A DNA stretch of 64,000 nucleotides, taken from the NCBI GenBank assembly GCA_024280115.1, contig JAJRQT010000044.1, positions 1 to 64,000 on the forward strand, given 5' to 3'. A program made the translations under genes and the position numbers. This stretch comes from Bacteroidota bacterium. GTDB lineage: Bacteria; Bacteroidota; Bacteroidia; Cytophagales; Cyclobacteriaceae. Below are positions 10,365-32,497 of the stretch, one piece after another. Under the pieces are notes generated by a model. That model was not told the origin of the DNA, did not search any database, and saw only the letters and a program-made list of their open reading frames with translations. Each line of letters begins with the position of its first letter. The stretch's first letter is position 1.

Positions 10365-10697
10365 ATGGAAGCTAAAGTATTCACAAGCGGAAATCTCGGA
10401 AACGATGCCAAAGTAATCAACTTCGAAAATGGAAATGCAGTAATCACCTTCTCCATTGCCACTAACAACTATTTTACCAATAGAGATGGTGAACAAATCC
10501 AGCTTACTACCTGGCATGATTGTAAGAAGTTTGTAAAGAATGTCAATGAGAAATTCATCGAGAAGCTTACTAAAGGAGCAACCGTCACCATCCTGGGCAC
10601 GCTCAGCTATGATGAATTTGAAAAAGAGGTCACCAAGACCAAATCTGTCAAAATCAGAAAGGCTTACATAGATGTAAAAGTCATTGAGATCTTGTAA
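10365..10697 (+). CDS. ssb: Single-stranded DNA-binding protein (short form)
   Basis: The ATG at 10365 starts the OB-fold SSB at MEAKVFTSGNLGNDAKV; upstream codons in the open frame are intergenic. The 110-residue protein shows the SSB order: an N-terminal strand, 'AVITFSIATNN', a 'TTWHDCKKF' strand and 'LTKGATVTILGTLSYDEF'. It has no acidic C-terminal tail of the DnaB/partner-binding type, as is common for SSBs of Bacteroidota mobile elements. It probably protects transferred ssDNA together with the Toprim protein. A strong terminator follows. A frameshifted relic of a related ssb 3' end lies at about 30015-30117. Confidence 0.85.
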   Translation: MEAKVFTSGNLGNDAKVINFENGNAVITFSIATNNYFTNRDGEQIQLTTWHDCKKFVKNVNEKFIEKLTKGATVTILGTLSYDEFEKEVTKTKSVKIRKAYIDVKVIEIL

Positions 10698-10747: not shown

Positions 10748-11385
10748 CTTTTCTTTTGGGGGAGTTTTAAAAGAAAAAACCAGACACAATATCTGGCTTT
10801 CAAATTATTATCTAAGAGTTGTTAGGTAATCTAACGAGATAAAGGTAACAATTCATTCGTTGGAAGACAATCAAAATCTTTTTCTATCGAATTAATACCT
10901 GTCTTTTCATTGCTCAGATTAAGTTATTCGTTTAAGTGAAACCAATACGATTTTTCCATTCGGTTCCTCACTCCAAAATCATATCCGTTTCACTTAAAGG
11001 TCTTGAAAACTTTGAATAAAAACCCTTTGCGCTGGCTGTGCTGTTTTTATCCAAAGATTTCGCTTTGAGATGACACCTTGGAAATCCATGTACTTTTACA
11101 ATCAACTATTAACCCGATTTATTCACCGGAATTTAGAACATTGATAAAAAACAATCTGTATATGATTGGAACCCAGGCAAATAAACATCGGGTTAACCCC
11201 GATCATTGCTTTTATTTACTCCCCAAATTTGAGGAAGGTTGATTAGCTGTTTTTTTATTAAAATTCAGTGTTGTGGAGAATAAAAGCAATTATCGGCTCG
11301 TAGAGCGAAAAATTATGAATTTTTCGGGTTAATACCATTCATGAATAGTAACGAGAACAAAAGAACTTTTATAGAATAGTTCTTG
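10748..11385. other. Non-coding border of the RHS cluster
   Basis: No gene is visible. The stretch holds the first copy of the 66-bp direct repeat, a GTGAAAC/GTTTCAC inverted pair just before it, and a hairpin ATCGGG/CCCGAT at 11187-11203 flanked by AATAAA and TTTATT. Confidence 0.5.
11001..11066. repeat. 66-bp direct repeat, left copy
   Basis: Identical over 66 bases to 28938-29003. The bases just upstream of both copies also share pieces (AAGTGAAACCAA and ATCCGTTTCAC) with divergent filler between them. Together the copies bracket the minus-strand RHS/fibre cluster. Confidence 0.8.
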
Positions 11386-11578
11386 CTAAAAATGTATATC
11401 CTTCAACTTAAACTCCCCCAGCTGAAAACCGAACTTAATATTCCACGCTTTGGGGTTGGGGCTTGATGCGGTGTGTAAAAAATCGTAGGTGAAGATGATC
11501 TGGCCTTTCAAGGCTTTGGAGAAGTTCATTTGCTTTCCGATGCCCATAGGCAATCCGTTGTTCCATAATTGGGATATT
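11386..11578 (-). pseudogene. 3' remnant of a coiled-coil/beta-barrel gene
   Basis: The reverse strand encodes about 60 residues ending GEFKLKDIHF and a TAG stop at 11386-11388. By eye it is roughly 90% identical in DNA to the last ~150 bases of the gene at 13812-15311 (which ends GEFKLKDVRF). The similarity fades upstream of about 11540, and nothing of the N-terminal part is present. This is the severed end of a second copy, left just downstream of two LamG genes. Confidence 0.8.
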
Positions 11579-11586
11579 GATTTATA

Positions 11587-12678
11587 TCATTCAGTTTTGA
11601 CTCCCTCTAATACTTCAACCCTATTCTTTAAAAATTCGATATCCTTGCTTTGTTCTATCAGATACAAAGTCAACTCCTCTACCTTTTGAAGTAATTTGAG
11701 GTTCAATTCTTTAAGATTAATACCATTTGCTTCCATTTCATTTGCTGATGGAATTTCTGGGAGATGCTTATTGGCTTCAATATACTTTTCTGTTTCTTCC
11801 AAAGCAGATAAATTATAGTCTTCATCAAAAACAAAATCCGGTGCAGGAAAACCATTGAGATCGACTTTTACTTCTTTAGTGTGGATGGTACCGTTTACTG
11901 TAAGTTTTGAGTCTGGTGTATCGGTGCCTATACCTACGTTTTCTCCAACACAATAAATGCTTTCGCATAATAGGGAGGACGAAGGAAAGAAGTTGCCTAA
12001 ATATAATGCCTGGATTTCTTCTTCATTTAAAACTCTATCAAACATGGCAATATCATCCATTTCGCCTTTGAAAAATCTTTGCAAATAATTTGATGCATCC
12101 ACTCCTATCCCTATTTCATTTACACCATTTAATAAACCATTTCCGCCATTCTGAATCTGCATCTCCGATCCATTAACAAAGGTTTTTAATGTATCTCCAT
12201 TGTAGGTCATAACAATGTGTTGCCATTCTCCACTAATTGCACTATTATCATCAACCGAGGTTGCGATGAGATTAGTTTCAGAATCTCCAATAACAGCCCT
12301 CCACGACTTCCCTCCATTACCAACATCCATATAAAGAATAAACTCACGGGTATTGCCCCATTTTCCAACTAATGTATAATCTACATTTAAGTCTTCAAGT
12401 TTTGCCCAAACGGATATAGAAATTTGATTGCTAAAGAGTAAATCTCCAATTCCAATATAATCATCTTCTCCATCGAATTTATAGGCGCTATTAGGATTTC
12501 CAAATCGGTCGATTGTAAGTATTGCACCGTTTACAACCCCATCATTCCCATTCCCACTCTCATCATTGGCATTACCATTGAATGGCCAGTAACCAACTAA
12601 GCCATCGGTAGAAATTTGAGCGAAGAGTCCAGTGGATAGATAAAAAATGAAAGTTATTAATAATAAAAATGTTTTCAT
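11587..12678 (-). CDS. LamG-domain fibre-like secreted protein (copy 2)
   Basis: The start at 12678 (MKTFLLLITF, signal peptide ending LFAQ) is preferred over an upstream TTG. The 363-residue protein has a LamG/concanavalin-like domain (about residues 30-225: 'GLVGYWPFNGNANDESG' through 'DDIAMFDRVLNEEEIQALY'), then 'VGIGTDTPDSKLTVNGTI'. It ends in the C-terminal module shared by five proteins here (FVF, NKHLPEIPSA, LLQKVEELTLYLIEQ) and a short coiled coil. LamG domains usually bind glycans or proteins, so a cell-surface adhesin is likely. It is a tandem duplicate of the next gene upstream, one base apart. No T9SS sorting domain is seen. Confidence 0.75.
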   Translation of the reverse strand: MKTFLLLITFIFYLSTGLFAQISTDGLVGYWPFNGNANDESGNGNDGVVNGAILTIDRFGNPNSAYKFDGEDDYIGIGDLLFSNQISISVWAKLEDLNVDYTLVGKWGNTREFILYMDVGNGGKSWRAVIGDSETNLIATSVDDNSAISGEWQHIVMTYNGDTLKTFVNGSEMQIQNGGNGLLNGVNEIGIGVDASNYLQRFFKGEMDDIAMFDRVLNEEEIQALYLGNFFPSSSLLCESIYCVGENVGIGTDTPDSKLTVNGTIHTKEVKVDLNGFPAPDFVFDEDYNLSALEETEKYIEANKHLPEIPSANEMEANGINLKELNLKLLQKVEELTLYLIEQSKDIEFLKNRVEVLEGVKTE

Positions 12679-12679
12679 G

Positions 12680-13768
12680 TTATTCAATATTTGCTGTTTC
12701 TATTTCATTTATAGTATTTTTTAATTTCTCAATTTCCTCATTCTGGTTTCTTGATATCAGGAATAATTGTTGAAGGCTTTTGTTCTGTTCTATCATGTAT
12801 AAGGTCATCTCCTCTATTTTTTGAAGAAGTTTCAGGTTCATTTCTTTTACATTTATTCCATTTGCCGCCATTTCCTTTGCTGTGGGTATATCAGGTAGGT
12901 GTTTGTTCACTTGAATATAGCCTTCAATTTCCTTTAGTGTTGGTAGTTTATAGTTCTCTTCAAAAACAAAATCTGGTGCAGGAAAACCATTAAGATCTAC
13001 TTTCACTTCTTTAGTATGGATAGTACCATTAACTGTAAGTTTTGAGTCTGGAGTATTGGTGCCAATTCCTACGTTTTCACCGACGCAATACAAAGTTTCA
13101 CAAAGCTGAGATACAGGTATATTTTCAGAATAAATGGCTTGAATTTCAGCTTCCGATAATGCTCTATTGAATACCATTAAATCATCAATTTTACCATTGA
13201 AAAAGTGTGACAATCCGAGATTCCTATCTCCAATTCGTCGGGTTATGTTACTATTGAATGGATTAGTTATTTCTATTGTATTTGTTGTAATAAAATCTAT
13301 GTAACCAGTTAAATTGCTTCCATCATATACAAAAACTATATGATGCCAGGCTACATTTTCACTAAAATTATATGTTGAAATGGCGGTGGTATAAACTACT
13401 AACTCATTATTTCTTATCCCTAACAATTCCGAGCCTGAATCCCCCTGTAAAACTGTCATAATATTGTAGTATGGTGATTCGGAAGGGATTGGAACATTTG
13501 GATTTATCCAGACAGATATTGTCCATTGATTAAAGCCAATATTATTTGAGATTTGTATATAGTCATTTCCATCAAAACTATATGCACTATTTGGATTCCC
13601 CATTCGATCTTTGACCAAAGTTACACCATAAATAGCCCCATCATTCCCACTCCCACTCTCATCATTGGCATTGCCGTTGAAGGGCCAGTAACCTACTAAT
13701 CCATCTGTTATTGGTTGTGCAAAACTTAATGTTGGCAGTAATAATATAAGAGTAATTATTTTTTTCAT
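12680..13768 (-). CDS. LamG-domain fibre-like secreted protein (copy 1)
   Basis: The start at 13768 gives a clean signal peptide (MKKIITLILLLPTLSFAQ); the longer frame begins upstream without one. The 362-residue protein repeats the plan of its downstream neighbour: LamG domain with the same 'GLVGYWPFNGNANDESG' entry, VGIGTNTPDSKLTVNGTI, then the shared C-terminal module (NKHLPDIPTA, LLQKIEEMTLYMIEQ) and a longer coiled coil. The two C-terminal halves are close to identical while the LamG halves differ strongly, as expected if the domain facing the environment diversifies and the stalk is conserved. Confidence 0.75.
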   Translation of the reverse strand: MKKIITLILLLPTLSFAQPITDGLVGYWPFNGNANDESGSGNDGAIYGVTLVKDRMGNPNSAYSFDGNDYIQISNNIGFNQWTISVWINPNVPIPSESPYYNIMTVLQGDSGSELLGIRNNELVVYTTAISTYNFSENVAWHHIVFVYDGSNLTGYIDFITTNTIEITNPFNSNITRRIGDRNLGLSHFFNGKIDDLMVFNRALSEAEIQAIYSENIPVSQLCETLYCVGENVGIGTNTPDSKLTVNGTIHTKEVKVDLNGFPAPDFVFEENYKLPTLKEIEGYIQVNKHLPDIPTAKEMAANGINVKEMNLKLLQKIEEMTLYMIEQNKSLQQLFLISRNQNEEIEKLKNTINEIETANIE

Positions 13769-13811
13769 GATGTCCAAAATTTGATTATTACCTGATTCAA
13801 TAAATGTGTTC

Positions 13812-15311
13812 TTAAAACCGCACATCCTTCAACTTAAACTCCCCCAACTGAAAACCAAACTTAATATTCCATGCTTTGGGGTTGGGGCTTGCGGCGGTGT
13901 GTAGAAAATCGTAAGTGAAAATGATCTGGCCTTTCAGTGCTTTGGAGAAACTCATTTGCTTGCCGATGCCCAGTAGGAGGCCTTCGTCCCAGGAACGGGC
14001 GGGTAGGTCGGTGGCAGGGTTGGGGTTGGTGATTGGCGTGCTTAGATATTGGAACTCGCTATGGGCGAAAAAGCCTTTCCAGATTTTGTGCTGTACGATG
14101 GCGCTGACGCCATACACATCTGTCGTGGTATTAACCGCTACAGTGGCATTATTCTCAATACCCAGACTCGCACGGTAGGTGCCAGATATGCCGGCGGAGA
14201 ACAATTTATTAAACCTGTACATTAAATTTGGCGACAGGTCCACGCTAATGGGGTTGGTGCGCTGGATTTGAAAACCTAAGCCAAAGACCAGTCTTTTTTT
14301 CAAAGGTTCATCTTTTAGGGAAGTCGCCTTGACTGCCGTGCTGAGGTCTCTGGAGTCGGGCACATAGGAGTATTTCTTTTTGAGCTTGCTCATCATACCC
14401 TGGGCTTGGGAGAGTTTATCCTGATGATTAGCAAAGTAATCGGTGGCTTTTTTTATGGCGACTTCTTTCGCTTCTGCTTTCATAGCCTGTGCATCCTGAT
14501 AACGTTTGAGGTCTGCCAGCATGCTTTCTGGCAACTCCTTCATCGTTGCCAGTTCTTTTGTTTCATTATTGAGGGTTTGGAACTCGGACATCTGCGCAGC
14601 TTTGCTATCTATCGCCTGATCGATGTTGGATGGGTCTTTGATGAGTTCTGTGTATTCCCCAACTTCATCGGGTACTTGATAGTCCGGTAACTCGGACTTG
14701 ATCCAGTCGGTGTTTTTTAGGTTTCCAAGTTGCTCGTCTACCATGGATTTTAGACCATTATTCGGCAAAGATACCTGGTCTATACCCAACTTATCAATTT
14801 TCAGATCCTGCATTCCGGGCAAGGAAAGTTTCTCTAATTCTGGGATTTGCAGCTTCTCTGAAAAATCAGTATCCGGCACGGAAGCACCGTACTTGCTGAG
14901 CTTATCCAACTGAAATTTATTAGACAATACATTTTGCAAGGAATCAATTCTCCTTGTGATCCTTTCTGTCTTCTCCGTGACATTGGATAGTTGTTGATTT
15001 CCTTTGGTTTGGATTTCATTCAGCCTTTGCTGCAAGGAGTCTATTTTGCTTTGGACTTTTCCTTCGATTACTGAGGACAGATTGTTTAGGCTGTCTGTGG
15101 TGGTTTGTAGTAGATTTGCCGATTTGTTGGATAAAGAATCAATCCTGGTAAAAACATTATTCTGTAGCTGTTCTCCTTTTTCTTTGACATATTGGATATC
15201 TGTTGCTACTCCGCTTTGGGCAGGCTCGGTAGTTTCTGCCTGCTGGGCGTGTACCTGACAGAAACCCACAACCAATATGAAAACCAATACATACTTCACC
15301 TTACTATACAT
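13812..15311 (-). CDS. Coiled-coil outer-membrane beta-barrel-like protein
   Basis: This 499-residue protein has a signal peptide ending VHAQ. A long heptad-rich segment follows (about residues 30-130, many Leu, Gln and Ser), then a helical middle. From about residue 335 a stretch of alternating hydrophobic strands (LVFGLGFQIQ, LSPNLMYRF, AGISGTYR) ends in a C-terminal aromatic (DVRF), as outer-membrane barrels do. A periplasm-spanning or surface coiled coil anchored by a small barrel fits this plan. It is encoded between the RHS gene block and the LamG fibre genes, so it may anchor or export them; that is inference. A second, truncated copy of its 3' end lies at 11386-11578. Confidence 0.6.
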   Translation of the reverse strand: MYSKVKYVLVFILVVGFCQVHAQQAETTEPAQSGVATDIQYVKEKGEQLQNNVFTRIDSLSNKSANLLQTTTDSLNNLSSVIEGKVQSKIDSLQQRLNEIQTKGNQQLSNVTEKTERITRRIDSLQNVLSNKFQLDKLSKYGASVPDTDFSEKLQIPELEKLSLPGMQDLKIDKLGIDQVSLPNNGLKSMVDEQLGNLKNTDWIKSELPDYQVPDEVGEYTELIKDPSNIDQAIDSKAAQMSEFQTLNNETKELATMKELPESMLADLKRYQDAQAMKAEAKEVAIKKATDYFANHQDKLSQAQGMMSKLKKKYSYVPDSRDLSTAVKATSLKDEPLKKRLVFGLGFQIQRTNPISVDLSPNLMYRFNKLFSAGISGTYRASLGIENNATVAVNTTTDVYGVSAIVQHKIWKGFFAHSEFQYLSTPITNPNPATDLPARSWDEGLLLGIGKQMSFSKALKGQIIFTYDFLHTAASPNPKAWNIKFGFQLGEFKLKDVRF

Positions 15312-15423
15312 CCTTTCTTCTAAAAAAAATCATGTTAATCCCATAACCATAAAAATCATAGTGCAGACAATTATTTCAAAAAAAATCTTTTCCGTTTGTA
15401 GTCGCTGACTTCTTTTGCTTCAT

Positions 15424-15975
15424 TTATAATGTGAGTTCTTGGATTTTATTAACCCAATCTATGTCTTCTGATGCAATAGAGGGTACAACGAAAATAATAA
15501 CCACATCATTAAATAATATCTTTGATTGAAATTGATAATCATCGTTCTCTGATGCAGCACTTTTATCCTTTTTAGGGAAGGAAAATAAAAATTCATTTTC
15601 ATCCGAACCCTGCTTGAAATAATCTGATGCTAATAATTTTGATCTGACAGCATCAGGGAATTTGGATCCTTTATCAAAGTGGTAGTGTGAAACGCTCACT
15701 CCTTTGTTAAAGTGAATCATAATTTTTAAAACCTCCCTTTGATTGTCATCAAGATATTTGAAGAAAAAAGGATCATTTTTATTATTAGAAGCATTATTTG
15801 CCTCAAATCCCCTTAGTTGTAAATAATTCTTTATCTCTTGCAACTCATCTTTTTTTAATAAATGGGACAAAGTCAAGCCATCCTTTATTAGCTTATTTGC
15901 ATCTGGATAGGCCGCATTAACAAAGAATGAAATATGTAAAAACATCAATAATAAAACTCTCTTGATAAACATCAT
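15424..15975 (-). CDS. Secreted protein of unknown family (183 aa)
   Basis: A signal peptide (hydrophobic to about residue 20, ending VNAA) precedes a 160-residue mature domain with helices first and beta strands last. I recognise no family. It is the second small gene after the RHS gene on the same strand, the place where immunity or accessory genes of RHS toxins are often found, but a secreted immunity protein would imply a periplasmic or surface target. Low GC, like the RHS 3' end. Function unassigned. Confidence 0.5.
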   Translation of the reverse strand: MMFIKRVLLLMFLHISFFVNAAYPDANKLIKDGLTLSHLLKKDELQEIKNYLQLRGFEANNASNNKNDPFFFKYLDDNQREVLKIMIHFNKGVSVSHYHFDKGSKFPDAVRSKLLASDYFKQGSDENEFLFSFPKKDKSAASENDDYQFQSKILFNDVVIIFVVPSIASEDIDWVNKIQELTL

Positions 15976-16002
15976 TCTCCTATTTAGTACATTATTAATT
16001 TA

Positions 16003-16449
16003 TCAATCACCATAATATATATCACCTTTAAAGTATTTAAGAATATACTGTGGTTTCACTATCCCGATAACCAAAATAATCGTAAATATTATTCCAAAAC
16101 CAGCACCTATTAGCACTTTTTTTAACAAGCCATCTATCGTCAACTCAAAGACTTCCGGATTATATTTATTAACAATAACCTCTAATGAGTCATTTATATC
16201 GTAACCTTCTCCTTGGAAGATATTTATCATAGTGTCATTATTTATCACATAAAGTATACTAAAATCATATAAATTATGCGATATAGGATCTTTATTTTTA
16301 TCAATAATCACCCCTTTTATTAAAATGCCATCATTTTTAATATTTATATACTTCACCAATAAATAAAGTGTTGATACTAAAATGGAAGCAGATAAAAGTA
16401 CTGTTACAAAATAAAAGCCAACGATTCTTGTTTTATCACTTACTTTCAT
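16003..16449 (-). CDS. DUF3592-like membrane protein, possible RHS partner
   Basis: 148 residues with a transmembrane helix at each end (about 10-33 and 110-131). The middle extracytoplasmic domain follows the DUF3592 plan: 'ILIKGVIIDKN', a strand pair, 'DINDSLEVIVNKYNPEVFEL'. Its ATG directly follows the stop codon of the RHS gene with no spacing, so the two are translationally linked. In RHS loci the gene immediately 3' of the RHS gene is often the immunity protein, and small membrane proteins of this type are plausible for toxins acting at the membrane. This is inference; DUF3592 proteins also occur without toxins. Confidence 0.55.
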   Translation of the reverse strand: MKVSDKTRIVGFYFVTVLLSASILVSTLYLLVKYINIKNDGILIKGVIIDKNKDPISHNLYDFSILYVINNDTMINIFQGEGYDINDSLEVIVNKYNPEVFELTIDGLLKKVLIGAGFGIIFTIILVIGIVKPQYILKYFKGDIYYGD

Positions 16450-19400
16450 TTATCTGCTAATCTGGATTTCCTTACTTTTTAAATTCCAAATATCAGTGCC
16501 TTTTGAGAAACCAACATTTGCACTATACCCAGGTTTTCTAAATCCAACCCCTATATTAATTTTTCCATCTGAAGAAGCCGAACCACTTACTATACCTAAT
16601 TTAACACTGCCTCTAAAAGGACTGTTTTCAACACCTCCAGTTGTTTGTAGAGACAAATAACCCTGTCCACTGTAATCAAAAGATGCGAAATCTTGAATGG
16701 AACTACTATTAACATCTAATTTCCCGGAAATATTTAAAAATACGCCAGCTGTATTTTCTCCCGTACTATAAAATCCAATCTTACCACTAATATAAGCTGA
16801 CTTAATTCCAATCTTACCACTAATCCCTAATTCCATTGATTTTATTGAACTACCAAAATTTGTAAGCGCAAGATCAGCTTGATGCATTTTTTCGGGAACC
16901 TCGTTAACAGACTCTACAAATTCATCAAATTTCTGCCCCGCTTGATGAGCCATCAACTGAGTATGTTGTGAAAATCCAAATGCCCCATCCCCTTGTAAAA
17001 AGTTGTATTTATCTCGGATATCATCTATTGAGGCGTCCGCCCCTCCCAAATAATCATATCCCTTTTGATATTTATATGACTCATCTGTCTCATCCTCTCC
17101 AGGTGTAACATCGATCCATTCCAAATCACCGCTTTCCTGGTTACTATACCAGTCCATACCATCAGGATCAATCATAAGTATAGGATTATTTCCAGTCCAG
17201 GAATATGGCGACCAATCGTAATAGTTTTCTAAGTGTGGGTCTAACTGCCATGTTCTTCCTAAGGCAGGATCATATCCTCTGGATTCGAAGTCATAGATAT
17301 CTAATCCTAAATCTTTCTCCAACTCTTTACCCTGATATAGAAAGTTGTTTTTCTGTTCCTCTGGATTCTGCCATGAGTTAAAAGTCAAGCCAAAGGGATA
17401 GTAGTCATTGGCTTGCACTACCATACTTGGGGAGCTGTGGGTGATTTTCAGGTCATCAAAAAAGACATCCACATTCAGGGTGCTTTCATTGCTTACGTAT
17501 ATATACAGGTAGCCCTCAGAGCCGATGGTCTTGCTCAGCGATAGTTTCTGATGGGCCGATGATGCTGCACTGCTTACCTGCACAAAGCCAAATTCGGGAT
17601 TTTCATAGTTATTATCAAAGAATATATAGTTTAAAAATGACTTTGGTACATCCCCCGATGATTGGTTGATCAATGTAGTTGCTCCGATAAAGCTGTTGAA
17701 CGCAGAGTAAACCTGCGGGTTTTCAAGGGCCGTCACCCCAAACGAGGCCGTCATCGCAGCAAACAAAAAGGTACTTACCGATGTTTCCGAAGTATTCACC
17801 TGATTGTACCTCGCCCATACTTCCATGTCGATTACATCTCCCTGATAAACTTTCAGCCCTTTGGCCGGGCCTATCATTCTTCGTGTTCCGTCAGAATTTA
17901 TTAGTGTGGCATTGAGCATCGCCGATTTATTTGGCGAAGTTACCGTACCATCGGCAGCCGTATGGTTATAGGTCGTACTTGTATAGCGTGTTTTGTCCAG
18001 GTTTTTAAATTCTGCCTCTTCCGTAGTCTCATAGGCAGTTTCCATGGTTACTGTATATACAATCTCATCAGACTTAAACACCACCCTGTTGTTGCCCAGG
18101 TGGTCTTTCAGGTTGTACTGATAGTCCCAGGCATAATCGTTGGCCACCAGGTCGGCCACAATCCTTCCTTCGGCGGTCTGAATGATTTTTAGCGTGTCGT
18201 TGTCAAAGATCATTCCCCCCACGTATTTGGTATCTTTTGTGAGCGTGGCATTTTCATATACTTTCTTCGCCAGCTTGGTTCCTGCCGCATCATAGATATA
18301 CTCCAGGTAGTCCCCTGTTTCGAAAGTGATCTTTTCCGGCAGGTTCAGCAGGTTGTAATCTATAGTTTGGATCTCCTTGTTTTTGTCGGTGATCATATTT
18401 CCATTGGCATCGTAGAGGTATTCTTCTGCCGACTCCTCACCATCCTTGAATCCGCTGGTGTGGTTTTGTTGATCATTTACAGCTAACAGCCTGTTCCCGT
18501 CATAGCTATACATAAGCTCATCAATAAGGGTATTGGCCTCTTTGCGGTCCAGCTCCTTAATATTTCCGTTTTGGTCGTATTCGATTCCACTTACGTTAAA
18601 GTGACCTGTATTCACATTCCATAAAGTCCCGGTTTTTTCCTTGTAGCTTGCGGCTGTCAGGCGGTTGAGTTTGTCGTAGCCAAAGTTGTAGGCGTGCTGG
18701 CTTCCGTTATAGCTGGCGTTGCTCCATGCCATGGCCGATATGTTGCCGTTGTATTGTGCAGTTGCCCCGATGCTTAGTGGATCAGTATTGTAGGCCAGGT
18801 TCATGCCAAACAGGTCGTTGCTGTCGTCGTTGACGTTTGTCTCGACTGTTCTCGTGGCATTGTTAATGTTGCTTAGCCAGCCACGGATGTTGTAGCGATA
18901 ATCGACAGACTGAGTATAATCACTTGATTCTTCATTATAATGCAATTTTTTATAGATCAGCTCGCCCAGTTCGTTGTATTGGTTTTCCGTCATCAGCACT
19001 TCGGTCTGATCATCCATCTGGTGCCAGGCTTTCATCAGCCGGCCTGCATGATCGTATTCAAAACGCTCGGTGATGGCTATGGATGTAGAGGCGTCAATGT
19101 GATGAACCAATTTTGATTTTGTTACCTGACCTATAAAGTCATACGCCATAAAGCTTTCCTGCATGTCGTCCATATAGTGCTCGCCCCTGCTTTGGATCAC
19201 CCGGTATTTCTTGTCGTAATAGACGACTGACCGGAGAAAAACATTGTCGCCCAACACTTTCACTTTGCCTCCCGTGGCTTGCCCTTTGGGGATGGAGAGC
19301 AAATCAGTGCCGTTATTTATGCCGTTGCCATTATCAAACGCAAAAGAACTATTTCCTCCTGTAAAACTATACTTGTCGTAATAGCTTACTGAGAGGTAAT

Positions 19401-20799: not shown

Positions 20800-20842
20800 T
20801 GCTTATTATTTTATTTTTTCATAATGATGAGCAGGTAGATGT

Positions 20843-21289
20843 CTAAATGGATAGTTTTTTACGCTTTAGGTACACATTATCCCTTGCATCTCTTATCTTA
20901 AAAAAAACATAGTAATCTCCTTTTGGTATAGGGCCCAACTTTAAAGCCATAATCTCTTTATCAATAAAAACATGATTGAAGAATTTGTCTGAGGATGCCA
21001 ACTTTTTTTTTGATTGATCTTTACGCATTGTCTTAGTAATAACACTTTCATTTGTCTTTGAATCTATTATTCTTAAATACAATCTTTCTGCTTTTTTAAT
21101 AATTCTTCTATCGATATAAACATTAAGATCATAAACCTTCCTACCATCCTTAAGCTTTTTTGTACTCACCTCAGACATCATTGAAAAATTAAGTATTTTT
21201 TGCCTTTCAGAGTTTTCTTGAGCCTGAGCAATACTTTTTAATGGAATAGTAAGGCCTACTAATAGAATTAGAGATATTATATATTTCAT
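20843..21289 (-). CDS. Secreted protein between two RHS genes (148 aa)
   Basis: A signal peptide (ending SIAQAQ) is followed by a Lys-rich, beta-strand-rich domain of about 125 residues with no recognised family. It lies between the BACON-RHS gene and the large RHS gene (36- and 43-base gaps), so it is part of the same transcript. The strand pattern and lack of catalytic motifs suggest a periplasmic or surface chaperone, immunity or adhesin component; none can be chosen from sequence. Confidence 0.5.
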   Translation of the reverse strand: MKYIISLILLVGLTIPLKSIAQAQENSERQKILNFSMMSEVSTKKLKDGRKVYDLNVYIDRRIIKKAERLYLRIIDSKTNESVITKTMRKDQSKKKLASSDKFFNHVFIDKEIMALKLGPIPKGDYYVFFKIRDARDNVYLKRKKLSI

Positions 21290-21325
21290 TTTGTTATATT
21301 TTTAAAATATGGTCTATTCAAGTTT

Positions 21326-24300
21326 TTAATAATATTTTGTACAATCGATTATCCGATAAATTCCGCTCCCCGACACCTGGATATCCGCCTCCCAGGGAGG
21401 TTGTCCTCCTGTCGGGCCTGCACTAGTTGAGCTTACTGAAATGGTCGCATTTCCACTTCCCGAAACCGGGCTGACATTAAGCCATCCATTACCATCATAG
21501 TAATACAAAGAAATTGTCCAGCTTATGTCTGATGTAATTGTAAAGGTTTTTGTAGTCACACCGGGAAAAGTCAGTGATGTTGTTGACACTTGCAACGTTG
21601 GAGTGTATCCATCCTGATCGATTGGAATATCTCTATCGAAAAATCCTGAACCATTAGCCTCAACTATGGATACTATACCGGTTCTGGAACTACTGCCACT
21701 ATTTGATTGAACAGTCACCGAGACGGTTCCATTTCCAGTTCCGCTTGTTGGGCTTACACTAATCCATAACTGGTCATCGGAAACATTCCAGGATTTATCT
21801 GTGATAATATTGATGTTGGATGATTGAGTCGAACTGTTAAATGATAGACTTTCTGCCGATGTGGTGAGAATTTTCTGTGGTTTGTATTTGTAATCATAAG
21901 CTGCAACAATATTGCTGTTATAATCCTGCACATAACTTAATCTACCAAAATTGTCATAGCTATAGTATGATTTTATATCGTTTGGATCAGAGGTTGATGT
22001 TAATCCTCTACCCGGATCAAAGATATATGTAGCAATTTGGGCATCTGGCAAGCTTTGTCGCAGTTGACTTATCTGTGTTGAAGAGAGATTCATTCCATTT
22101 TGGTCTAATGTGATACTGCCTCCCAGGGCAACTTCCACTTCTGAATAATCATTTCCTGTTATCTCTGCAACAGGAAATTGACCGTCATATCCCCAGATAA
22201 TTGATTTGGTAATACCGCTTCTTGATGTAAACTCTAATACATTGCCCCGCCCATCGTATTTTGAAAATGATGCTTCTGTGTATTCTGCACCACTACCATA
22301 TTTTCTGGTAATCGCATCTGGTTCATATACATTGGCATAAGGATTAATATAGTTCCTTTTTACCGTACTAATAGTTGTGCCAGATAATTTTGTCTCCTCT
22401 TTTACCGGATAAGCTATCATGTGTTTCTGAACCATCTCCGAATAAACCTGTCCTGAAGGAGTACTCTCATGCGGATACTCCGTAATTGATTCCAGTATTT
22501 GGTTTTTACTTGTTGACGTTATTGTCTTTGTTACTTGTTGGTGTAAATAGTTATCGAAACTATATGTGGTGGATTGCCCTGTATTAAAGGTACCATCGCT
22601 TTCATAGGTTAATACTTGCGTACTTTTCAGTTTCGAGTCACCAGTAATAATCCGATAATAGGTATATTGATACGAATCAACATCTCCTGGGTGACAGGCG
22701 TCGGGCATTCCGGTAAAATAATCATAGGCTGTATTATCTAAATTTATAATATTCTTTTTGACTTTCAGCCCGATAGAACTCTTTGTACTGTCAGAAAAAG
22801 CCCCATATGTATTACTTGTTTCCTGTACTAGAGTTTCCGTACTTCCGTCAATCTTATATACACTTTTTTTAAGTAATTGTCCTCTTTTGAAATGCTTGCT
22901 CTCAATCGCAGGAACCCCAATAGAATATGAGGAACTTAAATTATCCGTATAATCACTATAATTATAAATGGTTTTACCGATATTACTACTTTCATCTCCC
23001 TCATATACTGTAACTTGAGAATAAACAACCGGCGAACCATCGTACGGTTCAATATTTATAGATGGGGTTGCAATAAAAGTCCTTTTGCGTTTTGTAGATT
23101 CCCCACAACTAGGAGCTGGATGTAAATATCTTTCAGTTACTTCACTTTGATATGAATAATTATTTAAAATAAAGTTGGCTCTACCAAAACCGGATTCATT
23201 CTCTCCGTATTTAATTGTTTTCACAAGCGGATTTGTATAACCATCTTCATAGCTTCTGATTTTTGCAATTCTTAATCCTCCGGCATATTTGGAATTTTGA
23301 TTAGCATCCAGATATTTATTGGTTTCATATTCAAATTCAGTCCATCCACCAGTTGGATACATGATCTTTTCAAGTACCCAGGCTTTCATATAAGTGGAAT
23401 CCGGATCACGACCATCTGTAATATTGCTGCCTATTGTAATGGTAGTTTGACTCGTGGTTACCGAACTCTGCCATGCTATGGTTTGTCTTGGAACAAGAGT
23501 ATTGTTATTCTTATTATTAAAGTAGCCCCAATAATCACGCTCTTTGGAATTATAATCTGGCAGACTTTTTTCCATATTATAGGCAAAACGATATCGTTGA
23601 ACAACAATCCCCATCTCGTCTCTTACTTGTAATGAATCCAACCTTAATCGTTTATCATTTGTGCTTTCAAAATAATGTTGATAGAATTGTACAGTTTTTG
23701 AAAGCATATATGAACCAGTTTCAGGGTCAATTCTATAGACCTTTACCGCATCAAGCCTATTTTGTTCTGAATATCCATCTTCACGGCCAGTAGCTAATGT
23801 AAATTCAACCTTACCAAGTGGATAATCAATTTGCGATAAGACCTGCTCCGTAGAATAAATAGATTGTAACGATTGACTTTCAAGCCCAAGATGGGATGAA
23901 AATGTACCAGGAACTTTATTATCTACCAAGTCATCTACTGTTATGATATCACTCACATCAGAATAAGTATTGCCGGATGTTTGGGTGTAAGTGAACTTGA
24001 TTGTATCCTGTTTTGTTCTAGAAATTATCTCAGATATTTTCCAGGCAGATCTTGTAGCAAAATTTTCATTGAAGTTTGAACTGGCTTCGAATATGGTATC
24101 GAACTTGTAGTTGATTCCGTATTGATCAAAGGCATCAAATTTTAAATCCCAGTCATTGACAGTATAGTTAAATTTTACAGGATTATATGGGATCATTACT
24201 TTGGCATAGTTATCCCCTTGATTAAATAAAAACTTACCAGACATACTACCAATTGAATAGGAGTATATATCTGGCTCAGTGTCTTTTATTCCACGGTTAA

Positions 24301-24739
24301 CTTCATTTAAATACAGTAATCCACTTTCTGAATAAGTATCAATGGAGCTAGCAATTGTTGTACTATTCAGATATCCTTCCGGGTTTTCATCGGGTTTGCT
24401 CATCACCTGTCTGGTAATTGTACCACCAGCTTGTAAAGCCCATCCCAATCCTACTAGACCTGCCCTGTCTGTAACTTTGATGCCTGAGGGATGGTATTTT
24501 ATAACTATAGGTACTCGTATATCTTTAACAACCACTTCATGTATTGGTATATCAATATTTACCAATCCTGTAAAATGGCTTATCGGGTAGTTCCCAAATC
24601 TTCCCAACTGAGCCGATTCAGGAGCCGGAGGTGTTACATTCGGGATCAATTGCTCATTGCTACTTTGACTAAAAATAAGTTGGTGTATAAATAGAAGCAA
24701 AATAAAGATGCCTCTGGTTAAAAAATTCCTGTATCTCAT
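21326..24739 (-). CDS. RHS-like secreted protein with two C-terminal BACON domains
   Basis: 1137 residues with a signal peptide ending LIFSQ. The N-terminal part has an SpvB/RHS-entry pattern ('VRVPIVIKYHPSGIKV'-like strand, then 'GLVGLGWALQAGGTITR'). A long beta-rich shell with a few YD repeats follows ('KYDGRGNVLEF', 'YSYDNFGRLSYVQDY'). From about residue 955 the sequence switches to two Ig-like BACON domains, each with a conserved 'W-x-V/I-S' and 'VSP-x-SG-x-GN' pattern (about 955-1045 and 1055-1135). BACON domains are proposed to bind glycans or mucins. No DPDG core and no toxin domain is present, so this protein probably presents a binding module rather than a toxin. It is upstream of, and shares an operon with, the large RHS gene. 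Confidence 0.8.
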   Translation of the reverse strand: MRYRNFLTRGIFILLLFIHQLIFSQSSNEQLIPNVTPPAPESAQLGRFGNYPISHFTGLVNIDIPIHEVVVKDIRVPIVIKYHPSGIKVTDRAGLVGLGWALQAGGTITRQVMSKPDENPEGYLNSTTIASSIDTYSESGLLYLNEVNRGIKDTEPDIYSYSIGSMSGKFLFNQGDNYAKVMIPYNPVKFNYTVNDWDLKFDAFDQYGINYKFDTIFEASSNFNENFATRSAWKISEIISRTKQDTIKFTYTQTSGNTYSDVSDIITVDDLVDNKVPGTFSSHLGLESQSLQSIYSTEQVLSQIDYPLGKVEFTLATGREDGYSEQNRLDAVKVYRIDPETGSYMLSKTVQFYQHYFESTNDKRLRLDSLQVRDEMGIVVQRYRFAYNMEKSLPDYNSKERDYWGYFNNKNNNTLVPRQTIAWQSSVTTSQTTITIGSNITDGRDPDSTYMKAWVLEKIMYPTGGWTEFEYETNKYLDANQNSKYAGGLRIAKIRSYEDGYTNPLVKTIKYGENESGFGRANFILNNYSYQSEVTERYLHPAPSCGESTKRKRTFIATPSINIEPYDGSPVVYSQVTVYEGDESSNIGKTIYNYSDYTDNLSSSYSIGVPAIESKHFKRGQLLKKSVYKIDGSTETLVQETSNTYGAFSDSTKSSIGLKVKKNIINLDNTAYDYFTGMPDACHPGDVDSYQYTYYRIITGDSKLKSTQVLTYESDGTFNTGQSTTYSFDNYLHQQVTKTITSTSKNQILESITEYPHESTPSGQVYSEMVQKHMIAYPVKEETKLSGTTISTVKRNYINPYANVYEPDAITRKYGSGAEYTEASFSKYDGRGNVLEFTSRSGITKSIIWGYDGQFPVAEITGNDYSEVEVALGGSITLDQNGMNLSSTQISQLRQSLPDAQIATYIFDPGRGLTSTSDPNDIKSYYSYDNFGRLSYVQDYNSNIVAAYDYKYKPQKILTTSAESLSFNSSTQSSNINIITDKSWNVSDDQLWISVSPTSGTGNGTVSVTVQSNSGSSSRTGIVSIVEANGSGFFDRDIPIDQDGYTPTLQVSTTSLTFPGVTTKTFTITSDISWTISLYYYDGNGWLNVSPVSGSGNATISVSSTSAGPTGGQPPWEADIQVSGSGIYRIIDCTKYY

Positions 24740-24868
24740 GATAACTTTTCTGTATTATGTGCCTTTTTAATTTCGCTTTATATTCTCAAATCCTTACCTG
24801 CTTTTATATTTAGTTTGCTTTTATATGCGGTTCCATTTTGTTATAAGTAAAATTGTTTCTTCTTTATT

Positions 24869-25888
24869 TCATTTTGATTCCAATTGTTCAATCCTATTCT
24901 CTTGCTGTTTTGCCGTTTCAGCTAATTCTTGATTTTCATCTTTTAACAATTCCAATTCCTTCTGCTGTTTAATGACATAAAGCGTCAACTCCTCTACCTT
25001 CCTGAGCAGCATATCATCCATCTCACCAAGGCCTACTCCATTTTCCTTAAACTGTTCGGTAGAAGGGATATCGGGAAGGTGTTTGTTTTCTTTGATGTAG
25101 GTTTCTACTTCTTCGATAGGTTTGAGCTTATAGTCAGGCTCGAAGACGTAGTCAGATGAAGGGACGATTTGGACTTTGATTTCTTCTGCGAGGATAATAC
25201 CATCGACTACCAATTTTTCAGTGGGGTTTGTGTTTCCGATACCGACATTGCCAAGCGTATCAATAGACATTGCCTCAAGCAATGATGAACCAATCATAAA
25301 TTGTAGCTGATCATTCCCGCTATCCTTCACCCTGATGTTAGCAAATCTTTGGCCATTAACACCAAACATCAAATTTGGATTTAGATTATCATCCGCATCC
25401 AAAAACATGGTTGACCCGTTTCCATTAGAGTCTTCAAATACATGTAAATTTGCATCCGGATTGGGAACACCAATTCCCAACATCGTACTTTCAAAATATG
25501 CGTTTACAAATCCATCACCACCTTCAATTGTAAAATGAAGGTTTTCAGACCCACCTTGAGCTGAACCAGTTTTAATTGCCACTTTTCCATTCGGAGTTCT
25601 ATTTGTTAAATATGGATAAGATAAATTATTGCTTAAATCAGCTCTTAAAAACCACCTACCTCTGTTTATTGCCACACCTCCTTCAACAGGTTGAAATAAT
25701 AAAAGGCCAACATCACCAGATCCTTCACCAAGAACATCAATACCACCATTAACCGTCAATTGCCCAATAGGCAATGTAGTACCAACACCTAATTTTCCTG
25801 TCGTATAATTATCACCACTCTCGCTCCATTGGGCATAAACAAAACAGGGAAGCCCGATAAGCAATGCATTTATTAATAAGAATTTCAT
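24869..25888 (-). CDS. Fibre-like secreted protein (type A)
   Basis: 339 residues with a signal peptide ending VYAQ. The first two thirds are beta-rich with recurrent 'LGVGTTLP' and 'VGIGNTNPTEKLVV' turns, as in trimeric tail-fibre or adhesin shafts. The C-terminal module of about 100 residues matches four other proteins in this cluster: an 'EEIKV' strand, 'YVFEPDYKL', 'ENKHLPDIPS', 'GVGLGEMDDMLLRKVEELTLYVI', then a coiled coil. A trimeric fibre with a conserved C-terminal foldon/stalk is the likely shape. No LamG domain here. Confidence 0.7.
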   Translation of the reverse strand: MKFLLINALLIGLPCFVYAQWSESGDNYTTGKLGVGTTLPIGQLTVNGGIDVLGEGSGDVGLLLFQPVEGGVAINRGRWFLRADLSNNLSYPYLTNRTPNGKVAIKTGSAQGGSENLHFTIEGGDGFVNAYFESTMLGIGVPNPDANLHVFEDSNGNGSTMFLDADDNLNPNLMFGVNGQRFANIRVKDSGNDQLQFMIGSSLLEAMSIDTLGNVGIGNTNPTEKLVVDGIILAEEIKVQIVPSSDYVFEPDYKLKPIEEVETYIKENKHLPDIPSTEQFKENGVGLGEMDDMLLRKVEELTLYVIKQQKELELLKDENQELAETAKQQENRIEQLESK

Positions 25889-25895
25889 CTTCAGA

Positions 25896-27011
25896 TTATT
25901 TATTAGACAGAATAAGTTCTTTTACAATTTCCTCTAGTTGATCAACACGTTTAGATTGCTGCTTCAATTCCTCGTTCTCCTTCTTCAACTCAATCACATA
26001 AAGTGTCAGTTCTTCTACCTTTCTCAGCAACATATTATCCATCTCTCCAAGGCCTATACCATTTTCTTCAAACTCTTTGGCGGAAGGTATATCGGGAAGA
26101 TGTTTGTTTTCATTAATGTAGATTTCGATTTCGTTAATTGAGCGAAGATTATAGTCAGACTCAAAGACATAGTCGGAAGCAGGAACACTTTGTACATTGA
26201 TTTCTTCAGCTAAAATTTTTCCATCAACTGATAGTGCATATCCAGTTGGAACCGAGGTTGAATTCACAGCTAAATTTCCTTTTATGTAACTTTGCCCAGT
26301 TCCGTCAACTTCGAGAAAGTTACTTGTTTTCATTGCCCCATCATGCTCTATTCTTAATCTTTGCGAATAGCCAGAGGATTCAACGACAAATATTGGTTCC
26401 CCAGAAGAAGGATTGGTTTTTGTACGAAGTACAATCCCATAATTTTCACCTGATGCCTGGTCACCAAAGTAATGTTCCGTGCCATTTCCATCAAAAATTA
26501 TTAAATCGCCATTTGAAGATCCCAGGTTGATGTCTAATCCAGAACCATCTCGTGAATTAAGACTATGGGTGAAAATGGCTCCATTAGCATCGGCAATTTT
26601 ATATCCTGTACTGTAAGTCCCTCCGGTGTTGTTATTAGGATTGCCAACTTTAATAGAGTTATCTTCAGCATTTACAATCAGGGAAATTCCGTATATTATA
26701 TTATTCCCGGATGTCCCTTTTTTTGCTGCATTTAGGCTTATATAACCGTCTCGTCCATGAGCGCCCCAAAGCAATTCAGCAGCACCATCGTTTGTAATAA
26801 TATACTTTCCGTCATTGTCAATCCCCAATTTGATGGACATGTTGCCCAATCCATCATTCATGGTCCAATATCCGGTAAAATCCCCTCCACTATCTTGAAG
26901 GGTCATCATTACCTCATTTAACCTGTTGATCGTTATTGTTTGAGAGTTGACTGTAGTTGCCACAGTAAAAGCAATTGCAAAAATAGTCAATGGTAAAAAA
27001 GTAGTTTTCAT
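25896..27011 (-). CDS. Fibre-like secreted protein (type B)
   Basis: 371 residues with a signal peptide (MKTTFLPLTIFAIAF, ending VNSQ). The N-terminal two thirds differ from those of its neighbours and are Gly/Asn-rich beta structure without VGIG turns. The C-terminal 110 residues are nearly the same as in the gene downstream (AEEINV, NENKHLPDIPSAKEF, LLRKVEELTLYVIEL, coiled coil). The gene is 7 bases from its downstream neighbour. Conserved stalk with variable head again suggests diversification of the exposed part. Confidence 0.7.
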   Translation of the reverse strand: MKTTFLPLTIFAIAFTVATTVNSQTITINRLNEVMMTLQDSGGDFTGYWTMNDGLGNMSIKLGIDNDGKYIITNDGAAELLWGAHGRDGYISLNAAKKGTSGNNIIYGISLIVNAEDNSIKVGNPNNNTGGTYSTGYKIADANGAIFTHSLNSRDGSGLDINLGSSNGDLIIFDGNGTEHYFGDQASGENYGIVLRTKTNPSSGEPIFVVESSGYSQRLRIEHDGAMKTSNFLEVDGTGQSYIKGNLAVNSTSVPTGYALSVDGKILAEEINVQSVPASDYVFESDYNLRSINEIEIYINENKHLPDIPSAKEFEENGIGLGEMDNMLLRKVEELTLYVIELKKENEELKQQSKRVDQLEEIVKELILSNK

Positions 27012-27021
27012 AGTTTTAATT

Positions 27022-28050
27022 TTAATTTTTTAAATCATTGATGATTCGATTTTGTGATTCATTTTCAGTTTTTAATTTTTTTATTTCTAACTGTTGTTCA
27101 ATCACATAAAGCGTCAATTCTTCAATTTTTTGTAAGAGTAAGGCATCCATTTTCCCAAGGCTAATCCCATTTTCTGCGATGTCCTTAGCAGATGGGATAT
27201 CCGGTAGATGACCGTTATTGTTTATGAAAACTTTTACCTGATCAAGAGATTTGAGGTTATAATTTGACTCAAAGACAAAATCGGACCAACCTGTGGCTAC
27301 CTTTACTTCGGTCGCACGGATAGTGCCTAAGACATCAAGTTTAAAGTCGGGAGTAATCGTACCGATGCCTACATTGCCATTTCTTCCGGAACCATTGCCA
27401 GTTGTTAAAAGTAAATCGCCATCAGACTGAAATATTATAGGACTCGTATAACTGTTTCCATCGTGAGAGTATAGTACAAAATCACCCGGAGCACTACTCC
27501 AAGAATCAGTTCTAAAACTCCAATTCCAATATTTTGCTCCTCCAACAGAATTATTATCACTCGGTTGAAATTTCAAGTCTCCAACTGCATATACAGATGT
27601 ACTAGGTCCACCAAGTTGAATTCCCGTTCTACCAGTATGTGTTACATGCAATTTACTTGCCGGCGTGTTAGTCCCGATACCAACAAACCCATTGCTGTTT
27701 AAAATTGTCAATCTGGTTGATCCATTTGTTTTCAAAAAAAAATTATTCGTTGAGTATGAGCTAAAACCTCCGGTAAGAGTGTAAACATCTTTATTGAAAA
27801 TGAATTTTGGTCTATCTGTGTATATATGTGCCCAATTGGAATTATTTGGGCCAATATCAATGTATCCTTCGGGTCCAGAAAAGCGTGCCTTCCAGCCTGT
27901 TGAATACACATGTAACTTGTGTGAGGGAGTATTTAATCCAATTCCAACATCACCGCTATTATAATAAATATCACTCCCGATTGTTGACCATTGTGCATTT
28001 ACATACAAGGGCATAATTAGTATGGGTATAAAAAAGAAAATTTTTCTCAT
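27022..28050 (-). CDS. Fibre-like secreted protein (type C)
   Basis: The start at 28050 (MRKIFFFIPIL, signal ending VNAQ) is preferred over an in-frame ATG at 28071. The 342-residue protein carries three VGIG turns (VGIGLNTPSHKLHV, VGIGTNTPASKLHV, VGIGTITPDFKLDV), each like a shaft repeat, then the shared C-terminal module (ATEVKV, FVFESNYNL, NGHLPDIPSA, LLQKIEELTLYVIEQ). It is the first clear gene of the minus-strand cluster. These turns occur widely in Bacteroidota tail-fibre-like proteins annotated near S74-type domains; the autoproteolytic S74 motif itself is not seen. Confidence 0.7.
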   Translation of the reverse strand: MRKIFFFIPILIMPLYVNAQWSTIGSDIYYNSGDVGIGLNTPSHKLHVYSTGWKARFSGPEGYIDIGPNNSNWAHIYTDRPKFIFNKDVYTLTGGFSSYSTNNFFLKTNGSTRLTILNSNGFVGIGTNTPASKLHVTHTGRTGIQLGGPSTSVYAVGDLKFQPSDNNSVGGAKYWNWSFRTDSWSSAPGDFVLYSHDGNSYTSPIIFQSDGDLLLTTGNGSGRNGNVGIGTITPDFKLDVLGTIRATEVKVATGWSDFVFESNYNLKSLDQVKVFINNNGHLPDIPSAKDIAENGISLGKMDALLLQKIEELTLYVIEQQLEIKKLKTENESQNRIINDLKN

Positions 28051-28063
28051 CTGAACTTTAACT

Positions 28064-28408
28064 TTAATCATGGTAATTTATTGACATGCAAATAACTTCT
28101 GCAGGTGAACATATCTTTATTAAATCTTTAGAAATGGAGGAGTTGATATAGTATTTCCATCCATTGATAAAGAACATTATTATTTCGTGCAAAATTGGAG
28201 TGCTATCCGAATGGATATGTGTGTTTGAAATTGGAAGAAGCACATTCTTTATACTGGTGTAAATATGGGATGTTGAGTAGGAAATAACATTTCGTAAGTC
28301 CTCCCTCCAGAATGATTCCAGGCTTTTATTTTTCTCTTGTTTATTGCACAAGTTAAATACTTGGCACTCGATAATTATCAATGTTATTAATGCATATATC
28401 TTTTCCAT
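28064..28408 (-). CDS. Possible small exported protein
   Basis: An open frame that from the ATG at 28408 encodes about 114 residues starting with a hydrophobic segment (MEKIYALITLIIIECQ). No family is recognised and the amino-acid composition is not decisive. It ends 14 bases before the first fibre gene, consistent with being the first gene of the operon, but it could be spurious. Confidence 0.35.
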   Translation of the reverse strand: MEKIYALITLIIIECQVFNLCNKQEKNKSLESFWREDLRNVISYSTSHIYTSIKNVLLPISNTHIHSDSTPILHEIIMFFINGWKYYINSSISKDLIKICSPAEVICMSINYHD

Positions 28409-29211
28409 TTTCTCAAACTTTGAACACACTTATCCTGTCACAACCGAAATTGTGTTTACACAATAATTTCACCTCATGTATCCTCCGAAATTTGAAAACA
28501 GAATAAAAACCTCTTAAAAAATAAACAGGTGCTGTTTTCTTTAATAAAATTGATGTGGTTTAATAGATACCTACAATGGTTTGTCCCTTGTTGTTAAAAA
28601 TTGGTTGTAAATATCTTATACAAACTTAAAACTAAAAATATTTAAAAGTCAAGTTATTTATAAATTATTTTTTCATGAATTTTTTTACTTTTTAGATTAT
28701 CGTGTTAAACATTAATTCAATTTTCGCCAAATTTTATTCTCAAATATGATTAAACTTTCACTATGAGGATGTTGCGCATGGAGTGCCCGGTTATTTCGAA
28801 GTTTCCAACCGTTAATTATTGACATGGAAATGCTTATTTTTTTTGTTACTAGTTTTGCGAAGAAGTGAAACCAAAGGTGTTTTCTTCCAACTCACCTCCC
28901 TTCAATTAAGGAAAATCCCATCCGTTTCACCAAAAAATCTTGAAAACTTTGAATAAAAACCCTTTGCGCTGGCTGTGCTGTTTTTATCCAAAGATTTCGC
29001 TTTAGACTACTCATTTATTCACATATTTTTCATATAAAGATCGGATGTTGGCCTGATACAGGTCAAGTGACAACGGCATAAAACCCGCCCACTTTCCCGT
29101 TGCTTGTTTATTCCGTTTCCTCTTGCCTTTAATCCCACCCTTTTGCTCACCCGCTCATTCAAACATCCGGAGTGGACATTAAAATTAATGTTTCACTTAA
29201 ATCATTTTATC
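28409..29211. other. Non-coding right border of the RHS cluster
   Basis: About 800 bases without a convincing gene. It must contain the promoter of the minus-strand cluster, but no clear Bacteroidota -7/-33 pair could be fixed by eye. The right half holds the second 66-bp direct repeat copy and the leader of the ardC relic. Confidence 0.45.
28938..29003. repeat. 66-bp direct repeat, right copy
   Basis: Identical over 66 bases to 11001-11066, with the same orientation. It lies about 200 bases before the ardC relic, so both copies touch mobile-island sequence (ssb on the left, ardC on the right). Confidence 0.8.
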
Positions 29212-29632
29212 ATGAAAACTTCATCTCATATTGACGTTTGCCGACTGGTCACTGACCTGATTATTGAAAAACTTGAACAAGGAGTTATCCCCTGGAGCAA
29301 ACCCTGGAATGACTATGGCCCTGCAGTCAACTACATCTCCCGAAAGCCTTATCGCGGGATTAATCAGCTTATTTTAAATGGGTTGCATGTGCGACCATTC
29401 TATTTGACTTTTAGACAGGCTAAAGAACTTGGAGGTCGAATTAAAAAGGGTTCCCAGTCTATTCCTGTTGCTTATTGGAATTTTACCTATCGTGATAACG
29501 AAACTCAACGATTCAACAGCTTATATCCAGGGTTGGTTAAACAAGCTTCGAAATGAAAAGAAGTTCATTGTGGAAGCATCTGATAAAGCTCAAAAGGCTG
29601 TTGATTATATATTGAATAAGGAGGCTTCATAG
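29212..29632 (+). pseudogene. ardC-like antirestriction gene with internal deletion
   Basis: Residues 1 to about 100 match the N-terminal ssDNA-binding domain (DUF1738) of ArdC-type antirestriction proteins: 'IIEKLEQGVIPWSKPW', 'YRGINQLIL', 'YLTFRQAKELGGRIKKGSQS'. The next frame then gives the ArdC C-terminus ('AYIQGWLNKLRNEKKFIV', 'KAQKAVDYIL'). The zincin-like metallopeptidase part between them (roughly 150 residues in intact homologues) is missing and the join is out of frame. The gene is therefore a non-functional remnant of a mobile island, unless the N-terminal fragment alone still binds DNA. Confidence 0.8.
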
Positions 29633-29652
29633 TCTCTTTTTCCTTCGCACGG

Positions 29653-29739
29653 GAAAACCATTATGTAATTCCCGCATCCAGCCTGCTTCCAAAAATCACA
29701 TAACCATTTTCCTGGGGCATGGAAGAGTTCATCAGTTCC
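29653..29739. repeat. 87-bp direct duplication, copy 1
   Basis: Matches 30193-30279 at 79 of 87 positions by eye. It follows the ardC relic, while the second copy follows the ssb relic, so the pair marks duplicated 3' flanks of island genes. Confidence 0.7.
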
Positions 29740-30117: not shown

Positions 30118-30192
30118 TAATTAAAAATCTTAATCTAAGAATGGAGCATTGGTTTTTTTTAATGTAATGATTTATCCTTACTCGTGGCAAGA

Positions 30193-32457: not shown

Positions 32458-32497
32458 ACAAAATAATAATGAGAAATAATACTAGCTAACGAAAAAA

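Follow-up and report, generated by a model that had tools for sequence, protein, structure and literature searches.

The attL and attR ends of integrative elements carry an identical direct-repeat core with differing arms. A related layout occurs in the leading region of the F plasmid, where passages of PMC9849209 describe the single-stranded promoters Frpo1 and Frpo2. These are two nearly identical non-coding elements that form hairpins and share their leading region with ssb, and recombination between them could delete the intervening DNA. Anti-defence genes of leading regions are the topic of PMC11541004; the string 'bacteroid' does not occur in the part of its text at hand. RHS/polymorphic-toxin clusters of Bacteroidota (PMC3482391) are like the locus presented here, which combines a Rhs core and DUF6443 with fibre-like and lectin-like neighbours. 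DUF6443 is not mentioned in the papers searched.

We analysed a window of 64,000 nucleotides (the whole stretch of DNA studied) from a member of the Cyclobacteriaceae, in which two copies of a 66-base repeat bracket an RHS/fibre cluster. As with Frpo1 and Frpo2, the pair is non-coding, can form hairpins, stands in a leading region that has ssb and is placed to recombine. Unlike in Frpo, the 66-base core is at most a putative promoter, copy 1 lies ahead of no gene that it could drive and the copies are 17.9 kb apart. The likeness to attL/attR lies in the identical core that borders a foreign-looking segment on either side, with differing arms; unlike attL/attR, the locus has no integrase in the scanned ORFs, no empty attB was found and the core is longer than usual. 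In the portions of the literature at hand we recognised neither a report of an RHS cluster bracketed by direct repeats nor one of a conserved stem-loop before ardC in Bacteroidota.

The 66-base core and its arms

The sequence-only reading had proposed perfect 66-bp direct repeats, and pairwise alignment bears this out: the copies at 11001-11066 and 28938-29003 (both on the plus strand) are identical at 66/66 positions and in direct orientation, with a start-to-start distance of 17,937 bases. Between positions 1 and 32000 of the window they are the sole exact direct repeat of at least 24 bases whose copies lie at least 5 kb apart. The chance expectation of exact 66-base pairs is approximately 2.5e-29 for 64 kb of the window's base composition. 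The repeat is in fact longer than had been described, since homology runs 5' past the core (92 bases at 93% identity, ungapped). Gapped alignment extends it to approximately 10922 in copy 1 and 28844 in copy 2, giving diverged 5' arms at 10922-11000 and 28844-28937 (plus strand). The score of this arm homology was reached by 0/2000 Markov-sampled shuffles and by 0/5000 other 100-base pieces of the window. The 3' flanks show no relatedness, as 150/2000 shuffles and 363/5000 other window pieces score equally high. The 66-base copies are the terminal part of a longer module with related but diverged 5' sequence.

An inverted repeat, GTGAAAC...GTTTCAC, is kept in both 5' arms, whereas its spacer varies in length and sequence. 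In copy 1 it has 12-base arms (TTTAAGTGAAAC ... GTTTCACTTAAA, 10931-10998, plus strand); in copy 2 GTGAAAC stands at 28865 and GTTTCAC at 28924. The core itself is predicted to fold as a hairpin, CTTTG-A-ATAAAAAC ... GTTTTTAT-C-CAAAG, with 8-base inner arms 19 bases apart. With DNA parameters, the plus strand of the core reaches -9.4 kcal/mol (z -3.06, 2/200 shuffles as stable) and the minus strand a z of -3.31 (1/200). Together with its 5' arm, copy 1 gives z -4.08 (0/200) and copy 2 z -2.09 (5/200). Three of the six frames are open across the 66 bases, which is no evidence for or against coding. Had arms and core diverged equally (20/26 adjacent bases are identical), the chance of 66 unchanged bases would be approximately 3e-8, so core and arms differ in history or constraint.

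Within the genomes and collections searched, the repeat is private to this locus. Its own genome (7.2 Mb in 236 contigs) holds two copies, both in the window, and none of 389 other genomes of the order gives a match at E 1e-4. It is likewise without match in 72,556 plasmid and 50,697 phage records, and pieces of the core have no exact match in the viral_contigs or genome_contigs collections. These counts are not those of a dispersed repeat such as a REP or MITE, and they speak against the possibility, raised with the original proposal, that the copies belong to a widely dispersed repeat.

Three partial core matches of 28-31 bases were found among 97 other relatives searched, and a second search of 294 other genomes gave further short ones, of which six were retrieved and aligned. 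The coding check covered four of them (G145, G136, G054 and G248, not G016 and G102); these lie inside long open frames and were taken as chance. A weak core match on contig C86 (E 0.047) was dropped, its place looking ordinary by eye.

A junction of ssb, repeat and ardC that lacks the cluster had been suggested as a check. Neither such an empty site nor a second 66-base occurrence was found in the genomes, plasmids and phages searched. With the site having no counterpart anywhere in that search, the missing empty site says little. For the same reason the other refuting condition set with the original proposal, that relatives always carry the cluster and never an empty site, cannot be brought to bear: no searched relative has the site.

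The RHS/fibre cluster and its surroundings

The cluster, including a 5' leader to approximately 28540, occupies 11387-28540 on the minus strand. Pfam and NCBIfam identify an RHS protein with DUF6443 and Rhs core (16450-20799) and an RHS/BACON protein (21326-24739), both on the minus strand. Further members are two Laminin_G_3 proteins, an outer-membrane-like protein and three fibre-like proteins, the latter four without a Pfam match. The claim that everything between the copies is on the minus strand holds for ORFs of at least 100 aa, save a 111-aa plus-strand ORF inside 21326-24739. Positions 11387-11565 are an 85% copy of 13813-13991, and 11645-11944 and 12780-13079 are likewise duplicated inside the cluster (79%); both point to tandem duplication among the lectin-like genes. 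The G+C content of the cluster (38.4%) shows no contrast to that of the flanks (36.0 to 39.4%).

Clusters of this type are common in the family. Of 147 other genomes of the family that were searched, 86 have a match to the RHS protein at E 1e-30. Among 14 loci from 11 other genomes, all 14 match the RHS protein and 12 have at least one fibre-like protein. The 66 bases are absent from these 14 loci (blastn, E 1e-8), whose flanks are incomplete, many loci being truncated at 20 kb or by the end of a contig. Thirteen of the 14 were examined for exact direct repeats of at least 24 bases and at least 5 kb apart, and 11 lack them; the other two, L121 and L127, have them where RHS clusters stand in tandem. 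The 5' leader recurs at six loci of the same-genus genome G002, and the neighbours of two G002 clusters tested are ordinary (patatin, oxidase, CAAX protease and methyltransferase; SusD, FecR and sigma factor). Apart from its location, nothing in the cluster is unusual. A scan of genome_contigs with the RHS protein confirmed no relative, the query being too variable for that method. Sigma factor, FecR and SusCD genes were also considered as ancestral neighbours of the cluster, given that the G002 cluster L117 also has sigma, FecR and SusD genes beside it. The L117 proteins share just 23-29% identity with those at 30628-35958, and we make no claim of common synteny.

Two smaller repeats lie within this region. 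Between copy 1 and the cluster stands a MITE-like dispersed element (11105-11333, no strand assigned) with ends TATTAACCCGA and TCGGGTTAAT set by eye; it has 42 matches in G002 and partial ones in its own genome and in G005. A 74-base piece from the beginning of the outer-membrane-like gene (15299-15372) is repeated beside RHS/ssb fragments on three other contigs (L042 at 14773-14932, 16617-16690 and 16894-16967; L043; L044; contigs including C80 and C230).

Both flanks hold island genes, in agreement with the earlier placement of one copy beside an ssb and the other beside an ardC relic. The left flank encodes DUF4099/DUF3945, Toprim_2 and PH-domain proteins and an island ssb (10365-10697, plus strand; Pfam SSB, E 6.1e-18), and six of its ORFs match no Pfam or NCBIfam family. 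Contig C144 of this genome carries a truncated ssb that shares 88% identity with it over 82 aa. The sequence after the island ssb departs from its paralogues near 10745, approximately 180 bases before the module, so that the true left edge of an insertion may lie outside the repeat. The right flank consists of a stem-loop (29062-29139), a truncated N-terminal fragment of ArdC (29212-29556, plus strand; Pfam ArdcN, E 2e-24), a relic of an ssb 3' end (30018-30113, plus strand), which shares 72% identity with residues 79-110 of the island protein, and short repeats also present on contigs C51 and C235 and farther along C90. One such repeat, of 93 bases, lies near ssb relics at 29647-29739 and 30187-30279 and recurs on C51, on C235 and at C90:67510. 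Sigma, FecR, TonB receptor and SusD genes stand farther to the right. The cluster sits inside the remains of a decayed conjugative island.

On contig C144, ssb fragments convergent to an RHS 3' end are joined to copies of the 74-base piece, and no 66-base copy is found at this contact. In the same place (L042, 14930-17214) the RHS 3' end is decayed; read by eye, its open frame continues into a peptidase-like tail, and two ssb fragments are convergent with it. The debris of ssb and pieces of RHS have therefore met more than once in this genome, and without the repeat.

As to mobility genes, Pfam recognised no recombinase among 12 left-flank and 12 minus-strand cluster ORFs of at least 100 aa, several of which match no family. 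A transposon, composite or with a target-site duplication, is not indicated: no transposase family occurs in the scanned ORFs and the 66-base repeat is too short for an IS. An integrative element would be in keeping with the identical direct repeats at both ends (66/66), but no integrase or recombinase was found in the cluster ORFs of at least 100 aa. An integron cassette is not indicated either: the scanned ORFs include no integrase, and attC core boxes of the usual form were not seen by eye in the 66 bases.

A conserved stem-loop upstream of ardC

The stem-loop between copy 2 and ardC, here called R1 (29062-29139, plus strand), scores 83.6 bits against the R1 covariance model, which was built partly from it, and shows covariation. 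The piece 29036-29136 matches relatives: by row count, 34 of 294 other genomes have a match in query positions 190-301. Alignment A1 was made of 16 elements found by pattern in fetched loci of 15 genomes and of the window's own. Its named pairs are standard in 96.5% of cells and five pairs change on both sides (0/500 shuffles), whereas further pair types are about as many as in shuffled alignments (64/500). The R1 model also finds a second copy in L080.

A search of 28 of the 29 IMG/VR loci fetched by pattern gave 21 R1 matches; three were taken as reverse-strand palindrome shadows, leaving 18 elements in 14 loci. Across the 21 rows, whose alignment was fitted to the R1 model, 29 cells change on both sides (0/500). 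In the same model-fitted alignment five pairs have two-sided changes (12/500), and further pair types are not unusual (487/500). DNA folds of single sequences are mixed (z -1.49, -3.78, -1.29 and -0.67), one of the four folding otherwise. Matches to R1 number 0/17 in other sources, none came from the plasmid search, and Rfam gives nothing at gathering score in the window or at the R1 elements of four loci. A match to the Rfam Flavo-1 RNA (44.9 bits) lies at 2439-2520 on the minus strand of L184, approximately 60 bases from an R1 element. The 66-base core was considered as a member of R1, given its similar layout (ATAAA inner stem, 1x1 mismatch); its copies reach 8.6 and 8.3 bits (E 7.9 and 9.5), which is chance level.

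ArdC follows R1 in seven relative loci (by tblastn, and by Pfam for L077), starting 51-53 bases after it in five of the seven. In L071 the next protein is RadC-like by Pfam, and L072, L074 and L082 have similar N-termini at this place; no ArdC or RadC-like gene comes close after R1 in L073, L081, L084 and L085. Ten post-R1 proteins tested in the IMG/VR loci comprise five RadC, two DUF6943 and one each of ArdC, DNA_methylase and DUF4942 (Pfam), and the following genes there start 33-75 bases after R1. In L077 and L080, MobC, relaxase and coupling protein are encoded just upstream. R1 is a candidate Frpo-like element or RNA leader. As for the repeat, its core is predicted to form a hairpin, and approximately 210 bases separate copy 2 from the ardC downstream of it, whereas copy 1 precedes no plus-strand gene; judged against the passages of PMC9849209, the placement of R1 fits Frpo better than that of the 66-base core.

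Origin of the arrangement

We tentatively read the repeats, at somewhat below an even chance, as a recombination scar left when DNA bearing the cluster joined a leading region made up of ssb, stem-loop and ardC. A segment with the RHS/fibre cluster would have joined the leading region of the now-decayed conjugative island by a single crossover inside the 66-base hairpin core common to both, in the manner of an integrating circle. The product would be a hybrid module on each side; the two would have the core in common, with 5' arms that are related without being the same and 3' flanks that are unrelated. The crossover agent may have been RecA or a site-specific recombinase, and only the RecA type has visible means today. 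The structure agrees with this reading: the core is identical, the 5' arms are homologous and diverged, and the 3' flanks are unrelated. The bracketing is tight, with modules within approximately 0.3 kb of the cluster. On the right, the leader homology to G002 stops near 28540 and the module begins at 28844; on the left, copy 1 is followed by 38 bases, the MITE-like element and then a cluster remnant at 11387. Debris lies on both flanks (ssb to the left; stem-loop, ardC fragment and ssb relic to the right), and removing 11067-29003 on paper would give the order ssb, core, stem-loop, ardC. Two relatives have the same stem-loop between a relaxase/coupling-protein operon and ardC. The structure, the tight bracketing and the island debris on both sides, like the private distribution of the repeat, are observed; the insertion event, its direction and its mechanism are inferred. 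Against it, no recombinase was recognised in the scanned ORFs and neither an empty site nor a donor copy was found in the collections searched; the G+C content of the cluster does not stand out from the flanks; and in relatives a coupling-protein gene rather than ssb lies upstream of the stem-loop and ardC, so the implied ancestral order differs from the relatives seen.

The main competitor to a scar supposes that two hairpin modules stood first in the leading region, comparable to Frpo1 and Frpo2, that the genes between them gave way to the cluster in unrelated events, and that selection or gene conversion kept the core identical. Two inverted repeats per module, kept in both copies despite the differing spacer of the first, are consistent with this, as is the orientation of the copies along ssb and ardC. 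We hold it to be less likely than the scar: no plus-strand gene lies between copy 1 and the cluster, the core scores at chance level against the R1 model, and it has no homologue in relatives (389 other genomes of the order) while the leading-region stem-loop is widespread. It is improbable that the copies are attL and attR of an element still excised by a site-specific recombinase acting in trans. The identical core, its imperfect palindrome and the unlike arms would suit such ends, but the scanned ORFs hold no recombinase, the genome holds no other attachment-like copy, and a core of 66 bases is long. Its palindrome spacing, with 8-base inner arms set 19 bases apart, is also unlike the usual core sites of tyrosine recombinases.

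Unrelated pieces might have been joined at a shared repeat during assembly, given that the draft has 236 contigs and that assemblers working with short words can make a join at a 66-base identity. The assembly has just two copies, with unique sequence on both sides of each, and ssb debris flanks the cluster left and right, which makes an artefact very unlikely. Finally, the core hairpin is stable for its composition and might serve both cluster ends as a shared regulatory element. Copy 1 lies between convergent genes whereas copy 2 lies between divergent ones. A terminator would therefore suit only one of the copies, as would a promoter, and we give this idea hardly any credence.

The recombination scar remains our preferred reading. 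Whether the cluster can also excise, amplify or swap, as the sequence-only reading had it, receives a divided answer: the tight bracketing, the island debris and the non-dispersed repeat are in its favour, but no recombinase was recognised in the scanned ORFs, no empty site was found in the collections searched, and the clusters examined in relatives lack the repeat. RecA recombination between the copies is possible in principle, and the data give no sign of the cluster excising, amplifying or swapping. A bolder proposal, which we regard as a long shot, would be that paired leading-region hairpin modules double as recombination sites for cargo (here the RHS/fibre cluster between ssb and stem-loop/ardC), with R1 as a Frpo-like early-expression element of Bacteroidota-type conjugative elements.

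Summarizing, the repeat pair is likely a trace of accessory surface-gene clusters recombining with conjugative islands, which is useful but ordinary. The stem-loop R1, a side finding, is perhaps more interesting. Should it work as a single-strand promoter or leader, these elements would have in it a recognisable early-expression switch for anti-restriction genes, as Frpo is in F.
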